Origin: Xiphophorus maculatus
Lineage: Eukaryota > Chordata > Actinopteri > Cyprinodontiformes > Poeciliidae
Assembly: GCF_002775205.1 (NCBI RefSeq)
Contig: NC_036447.1
Location: 7,738,501-7,802,500, forward strand
Reading direction: 5' to 3'
Length of the DNA: 64,000 bases
This document shows positions 9,060 to 32,942 of this stretch, in pieces (position 1 is the first letter of the stretch; each line of letters starts with the position of its first letter). The position numbers and the translations under genes were made by a program. Under the pieces are notes generated by a model. It had not been told where the DNA came from and did no database searches. It worked only from the letters and a program-made list of their open reading frames with translations.

Positions 9060-16572
<7,513 letters not shown>

Positions 16573-16629
16573 CTCTCCCCTCCTGCTGACCAGCAGCAGC
16601 TCTTACATCCTGGCTGTTCTCGCCTCTGA
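16573..16629 (+). other. mdh1: MDH1 stop-codon readthrough extension with PTS1
   Basis: After the UGA at 16570-16572 the same frame stays open for 18 codons (LSPPADQQQLLHPGCSRL) and then meets UGA at 16627. The last three residues, Ser-Arg-Leu, form a canonical type 1 peroxisomal targeting signal. In mammals a fraction of MDH1 is made by readthrough of UGA-CUA into an extension ending Cys-Arg-Leu, giving peroxisomal MDH1x. Here the stop context is UGA-CUC. The tail was therefore probably kept by selection, but readthrough efficiency in this fish is inferred, not shown. Confidence 0.8.
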
Positions 16630-16698
16630 AGATGTCCTCCACTGCTAAACCATCTGAGCTGGAGTCTGTGTGTCACCTCTGAGAGTATGTGTGGAGGC

Positions 16699-16722
16699 GT
16701 GTGTGTGTGTGTGTGTGTGTGT
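16699..16722 (+). repeat. (GT)12 microsatellite in mdh1 3' UTR
   Basis: Uninterrupted GT dinucleotide tract of 24 bases, about 125 bases after the stop codon and before the polyadenylation signal, so it should be present in the mRNA. Confidence 0.95.
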
Positions 16723-16875
16723 AACTTGGCCCCTTCTTCAGGTTTCCAGAAAACCTGTTATAACCTCCACAACCTGGCCTGACCTGTGTCTGTGTAAGAC
16801 ACCAAGACGTCTCTGTTAGTAGATAAAAACACACACATTAGCTGTGCAGAAACTGTAACGAACCATCTTCTCTTC

Positions 16876-16881
16876 AATAAA
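16876..16881 (+). terminator. mdh1: mdh1 polyadenylation signal
   Basis: AATAAA about 300 bases after the stop codon. Cleavage is expected some 15-25 bases further on, giving a 3' UTR of about 320-330 bases. Confidence 0.8.
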
Positions 16882-16904
16882 ACTAAGAAATCTGACCAAC
16901 CCTC

Positions 16905-18170
16905 TCCAGCCTCATCGATTCTCATCACTCTCACTACTACACACCTCAGCCCACTTCTAAACTTCTCTGCTTGTTTTAAACTGAGCTGAAACAAGAGCTC
17001 AACGATTTAGCATTCGATGTAAAACAAATAATATACTTTGTATACATTTTACACACTCAGTTTTACATACTTGTAACATCCTTTTGTCCATCGGTTGCTT
17101 ACAGTAGATGACAGCAACCACATGGGGGCGGCATAATTTCAAATTCAATTACGTGTTGGTGTATGTGTACACAGTAAAAAATCTATTAAATTAATTTTTC
17201 AATATGAAACTAATAGGCAGTACATATAGACGCATAGATAGATAGATGGATATAATATTGTTTACCTTGATTACTAAAAACCAACAACATTTGTGTACAA
17301 ACATGAGGTACTGTGTTTGTTTTTGGTCAAAACCTGTTTATTTAGTGGGTGGAGTATCTAGAAACTTTACTCAAGTAAAGGTGGTGACACTGAATAATAA
17401 TATTACTCAAGTAAAAGTAAAAAGTACACCAAATAACATTTTTATTTCTACATGCAGAGTTGAGTAGTAACTAGTTACATTTAAGCAATTACATTTACTT
17501 GAGTAACTTGGGGGGAAAAAAGTATTTTTTACCACACTGCAACTTTTTACTTTTACTTGAGCAATTTTATTATGAAGTATTGCTACTCTTACTTGAAGAA
17601 CAAACATGTTTTAAGCCAAAATTCACCAGACACTGACACATACCTGCAGTTTTTGTTAAAGTTTATTAAAAGAAACTGATTTTGAAAAAAAAAAAATCTT
17701 TCCTGATTTTACTCTTTGTTGCTTATATGATTTTCTTCCTTAAAATACCAAAAATTCAATTTTGATCCATCTGTTTAAGTTATTTTTAAATATTAAATGA
17801 TCGATAATTTGATCAGTTACATAGTACTTGAATAGACTTTTTACCAAATACTCTTTTACTCTTACTTGAGTAATTCTTGGATGGTTACTTTTTACTTCTA
17901 CTGTAGTAAAATATGATGACGTAGTGCTACTCTTACCTGAGTACTATTTTTGGGTATTTACCCACCTCTGAGTAAATGTAAGTTACTAACGTATACTGTA
18001 CTCATTTTATAGTAACATCAAGTTACCTGTCAATATCGATCAGGAAAATAATAAAATCAAATAATAATATATATAACTATATAACTTAAATATATTTTGA
18101 TTTTAGTAGCTGTTGACCGGACGAAAACATAAAAGCAAAAGAAACTTGTTTTGACTTGACAGGCGATCGA
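16905..18170. other. mdh1-ugp2 intergenic region
   Basis: About 1.3 kb with no coding signal. A CTCF-like site (CCACATGGGGGCGGCA) is at 17118-17133. Most of the rest, 17344-17970, is an hAT-like non-autonomous element. Confidence 0.7.
17344..17970. mobile_element. hAT-like non-autonomous element (ACTCAAGTAA family)
   Basis: The ends are related inverted repeats: the right end is CCCACCTCTG, the inverse of the common hAT terminus CAGAGGTGGG, and the left end begins with a GTGGGTGGAGTA variant. The interior is full of short inverted and direct copies of TTACTCAAGTAA. There is no transposase. Related copies occur at about 41440-41855 and 60859-61310. Flanking target-site duplications are not clear. 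Confidence 0.65.

Positions 18171-19810: not shown

Positions 19811-32942
<13,132 letters not shown>

Follow-up and report, generated by a model that had tools for sequence, protein, structure and literature searches.

An mdh1 gene of Xiphophorus maculatus with a candidate readthrough extension ending in a peroxisomal targeting signal behind UGA-CUC, and a second mdh1 copy with a like arrangement behind UGA-CUG

The window, meaning the whole 64,000-nucleotide stretch of Xiphophorus maculatus DNA analysed here, carries at positions 9060 to 16572 of the plus strand the gene mdh1, encoding cytosolic malate dehydrogenase. Splice sites and translation define nine coding exons with GT/AG at every internal junction and a product of 333 amino acids, followed in frame by a short additional open frame.

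9060-9062, 9937-10035, 11303-11399, 12196-12371 and 13376-13498, plus strand: mdh1 exons 1 to 5 (splice sites, translation)
14126-14302, 14394-14507, 15532-15621 and 16450-16572, plus strand: mdh1 exons 6 to 9 (splice sites, translation)
16570-16572, plus strand: first mdh1 stop UGA, after ...DFLSK, in the context UGA CUC UCC
16573-16626, plus strand: putative readthrough extension of 18 codons, LSPPADQQQLLHPGCSRL (open frame; length as in the published human extension)
16618-16626, plus strand: terminal tripeptide Ser-Arg-Leu, a type 1 peroxisomal targeting signal (PTS1) (translation; SRL is published for non-mammalian vertebrates, amphibia excepted)
16627-16629, plus strand: second in-frame stop UGA (translation)
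16876-16881, plus strand: AATAAA, a likely polyadenylation signal (sequence motif)

The Pfam families Ldh_1_N and Ldh_1_C both match the predicted protein, and cytoplasmic MDH1 chains in the PDB match it over residues 1-332 with a best E value of 8.4e-178; the window copy is a cytosolic MDH1 coding sequence with UGA at its end. Exon 1 codes for the initiator methionine alone and is followed by an intron of 874 bases. The polyadenylation signal, if used, would give a 3′ UTR of about 0.3 kb, in which a TG run (16700-16722) lies soon after the second stop. Open reading frames farther along the window match ugp2 on the plus strand and vps54 and peli1 on the minus strand; human MDH1 has the same neighbours.

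An earlier note on this DNA had described the mdh1 UGA as followed by 18 in-frame codons ending in SRL and then by another UGA, with CUC in place of CUA directly after the first stop; both descriptions, including their positions, are confirmed, the longer context of the stop being CCTGTCCAAG TGA CTCTCCCCTC. The 18 codons and the stop position together give 19 residues, equal to the published human MDH1x extension. Work on human cells in 2014 and 2016 demonstrated a peroxisomal MDH1 made by readthrough, the UGA being decoded there by a near-cognate tRNA that inserts Trp or Arg. According to Hofhuis et al. 2016 (PMC5133446), the extension and its PTS1 are conserved among vertebrates, with the C-terminus CRL in mammals and SRL in non-mammalian vertebrates other than amphibia, and the MDH1 PTS1 has been traced as far as Hydra (Stiebler et al. 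2014, PMC4207609). The suggestion that SRL is a stronger signal than the mammalian CRL agrees with the 2016 paper, in which the zebra finch SRL peptide works in HeLa cells and targets better than the human CRL peptide (PMC5133446), and is accordingly not new. With MDH1x by readthrough, the non-mammalian SRL and a zebrafish Mdh1x ending in SRL already reported, the interpretation of the window gene is largely published.

A DNA search of the fish's own genome (704,300,149 bases in 101 contigs), using window positions 16400-16800 as the one query, so that further mdh copies are possible, returned beyond the window itself a single match, 77% identical, at 23559865-23559975 on the minus strand of a contig here called C22. 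The lengths of exons 2 to 9 in this second mdh1 match those of the window copy, their internal junctions show GT/AG and the frame is uninterrupted. Its exon 1 was not found, and for the comparison an ATG was supplied by hand. Counting that added methionine, 275 of the 333 residues are identical, and codon by codon the two copies agree at 148 positions and differ synonymously at 127 and nonsynonymously at 58.

C22:23559856-23559858, minus strand: stop UGA of the second mdh1 copy, context CCTGGGAGTA UGA CUGCACUCGG
Locus L004, 3791-3859, minus strand: extension of the second copy after UGA CUG, 22 codons, LHSVGPTPPLPQCRPKTPEARL, ending in ARL and followed by UGA

The second copy thus has the same arrangement, a short in-frame extension with a terminal PTS1, here ARL, which is a PTS1 but not SRL and fits both the strict pattern used below ([SAC][KRH][LM]) and the wider pattern of Stiebler et al. 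The UGA, the CU at +4/+5 (the UGA CU core motif) and the terminal [SA]RL are kept between the two copies of this one genome, and the A at +6 is absent from both (the window stop reads UGA CUC U, that on C22 UGA CUG C). The bodies of the extensions are unlike and their lengths differ (18 against 22 codons), so that only the ends look constrained.

In the window, ugp2 (28932-32940) lies downstream of mdh1. A ugp2 copy, 80-92% identical in three stretches (L007, L008), lies downstream of the C22 mdh1 on the same strand and marks a duplicated block. Because the second mdh1 keeps its introns and an intact frame upstream of this ugp2 copy, as in the window, a retrocopy origin was rejected in favour of membership in that block, which is most simply attributed to the teleost genome duplication.

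The second copy was absent from the material behind the earlier note and therefore served as a fresh test of the extension claim, which it passed. The assignment of the extension to the MDH1x type is supported by gene identity, frame, SRL and the ARL of the second copy, and the proposal that the dual targeting is old gains from the finding that this copy, too, keeps UGA-CU and a PTS1. Many synonymous codons differ between the copies, yet both elements were kept; this speaks for selection on a peroxisomal form, although retention in two copies does not measure its strength. The new observation here is the second mdh1 of the same genome with UGA-CU and a PTS1-ending extension; in the portions of the literature available we found neither a fish with UGA-CUC or UGA-CUG at mdh1 nor a statement on both duplicated copies, though figures or supplements may show such cases. 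At the level of sequence, the capacity for dual targeting has been retained by both copies, not by one alone.

A random 3′ UTR frame that merely happened to end in SRL would explain the window extension without any function, and comparable frames do end in a strict PTS1 at a rate of about 0.24-0.68%, depending on the null. On both strands of the window, 2173 TGAs, the mdh1 site among them, have an extension of three or more amino acids; a strict PTS1 closes 7 of these extensions, the Stiebler pattern 27 and SRL 2. Over 244 kb of the fish's own genome, including both mdh1 copies, the counts are 22/8294 strict, 80/8294 Stiebler and 7/8294 [SAC]RL, TGAs that share a downstream stop not being independent in these counts. 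Removal of both mdh1 sites leaves 20/8292 strict (0.24%) and 78/8292 Stiebler; at TGA-CT sites in the 244 kb the strict count is 4/525, again with both mdh1 copies included. Nucleotide shuffles of the 3′ UTR gave 0.39% strict and 0.12% SRL, and codon shuffles of the extension itself, the least favourable null, gave 0.68% strict. As a local control, three neighbouring stops (ugp2 of the window, ugp2 of C22 and peli1) were translated onward, and 0 of the 3 has a PTS1 extension; these end in DVL (UGA GG), LIM (UGA GG) and a single K (UAG stop), respectively. Chance is a poor account even of the first copy, MDH1 being the gene in which published work leads one to expect such an extension, and the extension length equals the human one. 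A PTS1 in the second copy would itself arise by chance in about 0.2-0.9% of cases (20/8292 strict or 78/8292 Stiebler background), and its presence strongly disfavours chance, to which we assign a negligible probability.

The stop context departs from that of human MDH1, in which the stop is followed by CUA G where this fish has CUC, or CUG in the second copy. In human MDH1 reporters, changes at +5 or +6 of UGA CUA lowered readthrough from 4.34% to 0.4-0.8%. Table 1 of PMC4359377 lists 0.26% and 0.31% for two natural UGA-CUC contexts, 2.91% for MDH1 and 0.10-0.20% for its five UAA contexts. These human-cell data suggest a level for UGA-CUC several-fold below that for CUA, and the loss of the A probably lowers readthrough in this fish, leaving both copies weaker than human UGA-CUA; if fish ribosomes act like human ones, the level may lie between a few tenths of a percent and about one percent. 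The core motif as published is UGA CU, to which the A adds: UGA CU is enough in Ustilago, and the A stimulates further in human cells (Stiebler et al. 2014, PMC4207609). A search for literature on UGA-CUC stops found no dedicated paper, the matches treating UGA-CUAG or readthrough generally.

The two fish stops were also scored with published regression weights. LINiter gives 0.41 for the window copy, 0.41 for the C22 copy and 0.816 for human MDH1, and LINfs3 ranks UGA CUC second and UGA CUG eighth among the 64 triplets. Within the window, the score of the mdh1 stop is equalled or exceeded at 101 of 2599 TGAs, counting that stop itself. LINiter orders the 18 constructs of Table 1 of PMC4359377 with a Spearman coefficient of 0.61, a value that is not an independent check, since the authors of the model added sequences from that study.

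The context without the A bears on whether the extension is a relic: an ancestral UGA-CUA would have decayed to CUC and CUG and readthrough fallen near to background, with the PTS1 still awaiting loss. The missing +6 A in both copies and the diverged extension bodies are in keeping with such decay, as are the UGA-CUC values of 0.26-0.31% in human cells, little over the 0.10-0.20% of the UAA contexts (PMC4359377). However, PTS1 and UGA-CU persist in both copies despite 127 synonymous and 58 nonsynonymous differences beside 148 identical codons; without selection, a frame of 18 to 22 codons ending in [SA]RL would be unlikely to last twice; and the core motif given in the literature is UGA CU (PMC4207609). 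We regard decay of this kind as improbable, though it is the one alternative to which we give appreciable weight.

Downstream RNA structure could in principle drive readthrough in place of the missing A, and structure prediction does place a small hairpin 10 nt past the mdh1 stop. The 120-nt fold is, however, no more stable than shuffled sequence (168 of 200 shuffles fold at least as well; z-score 0.93), the 60-nt fold has a z-score of -0.60, and no Rfam family reaches its gathering score in 16400-16950. In human MDH1 the 50 nt downstream are reported not to be needed for readthrough. A structural stimulus of this kind is accordingly very unlikely.

The PTS1 might instead be exposed by alternative splicing, as reported for the malate dehydrogenase of Yarrowia, and a pyrimidine-rich AG at 16593, together with other AGs, does lie within the extension. 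Joining the exon 8 donor to these AGs would remove exon 9 and with it the C-terminal 40 residues, and exon 9 itself (123 nt) offers little space for an internal intron; in addition, targeting of human MDH1x is reported to require the UGA stop. Splicing into the extension was judged unlikely from the exon layout, and with the human result added we consider it an exceedingly doubtful explanation.

The arrangement is thus very probably the fish counterpart of MDH1x, a peroxisomal form of mdh1 made by readthrough, with a weaker stop context. The readthrough, its level, the import and the metabolic role that we infer for this fish would fit together as follows. Most ribosomes would halt at the UGA and release cytosolic Mdh1, while a small share would decode it with a near-cognate tRNA and add 19 more residues ending in SRL. 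PEX5 is the PTS1 receptor that carries proteins into peroxisomes, and it would bring the extended Mdh1 there, where the enzyme may re-oxidise NADH from beta-oxidation. The SRL and ARL signals, the presence of two gene copies and a possible import of unextended subunits together with an extended one, as is known for LDH, may offset weak readthrough.

Neither mdh1 copy falls in the human UGA CUA (G) high-readthrough class, and the window mdh1 is a fresh instance of the known MDH1x system that lies outside the UGA-CUA(G) class. It shares the gene, the UGA, the non-mammalian SRL and the human length of 19 residues with vertebrate MDH1x as described for human and zebra finch (PMC5133446). The zebrafish inventory of 2022 lists Mdh1aa with SRL by readthrough (NP_001303854.1, PMC8919083); a fish mdh1 with SRL in an extension behind UGA is common to both, whereas the second stop is UAA in zebrafish and UGA here. 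With the UGA CU(A) motif of Stiebler et al. (PMC4207609) the window gene has in common UGA-CU and a PTS1 extension, but not the stimulatory A. Mammalian LDHBx (Schueren et al. 2014, PMC4359377) is a related enzyme that carries a readthrough-encoded PTS1; unlike this fish mdh1, it has a UGA CUA G context and is reported from mammals only.

Since both copies lack the A of UGA-CUA yet carry a PTS1 to which readthrough alone would give access, a working supply of peroxisomal malate dehydrogenase may be able to run on UGA-CUC and UGA-CUG, the lower rate being offset by SRL/ARL and two loci, or fish ribosomes reading CUC and CUG more readily than human ribosomes do; we put this forward tentatively, at somewhat less than even odds. 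The UGA-CUA(G) rule rests mainly on human-cell reporters. The fish gene pair, its PTS1 kept twice without CUA, offers a natural test of the amount of readthrough required and of whether signal strength can be traded against stop leakiness.

In searches with two exact degenerate patterns of the mdh1 3′ end, virus contigs gave 0 matches. The sole match among prokaryote contigs, on a Halococcus contig, was dismissed as chance, its translation having no wider similarity to MDH1. The window also contains dispersed repeats, among them 1-175/2849-3023, 29860-30141/60403-60731 and 39871-39962/53542-53640/58838-58932; they are about 75-86% identical, some are inverted, and they are probably transposon remains.
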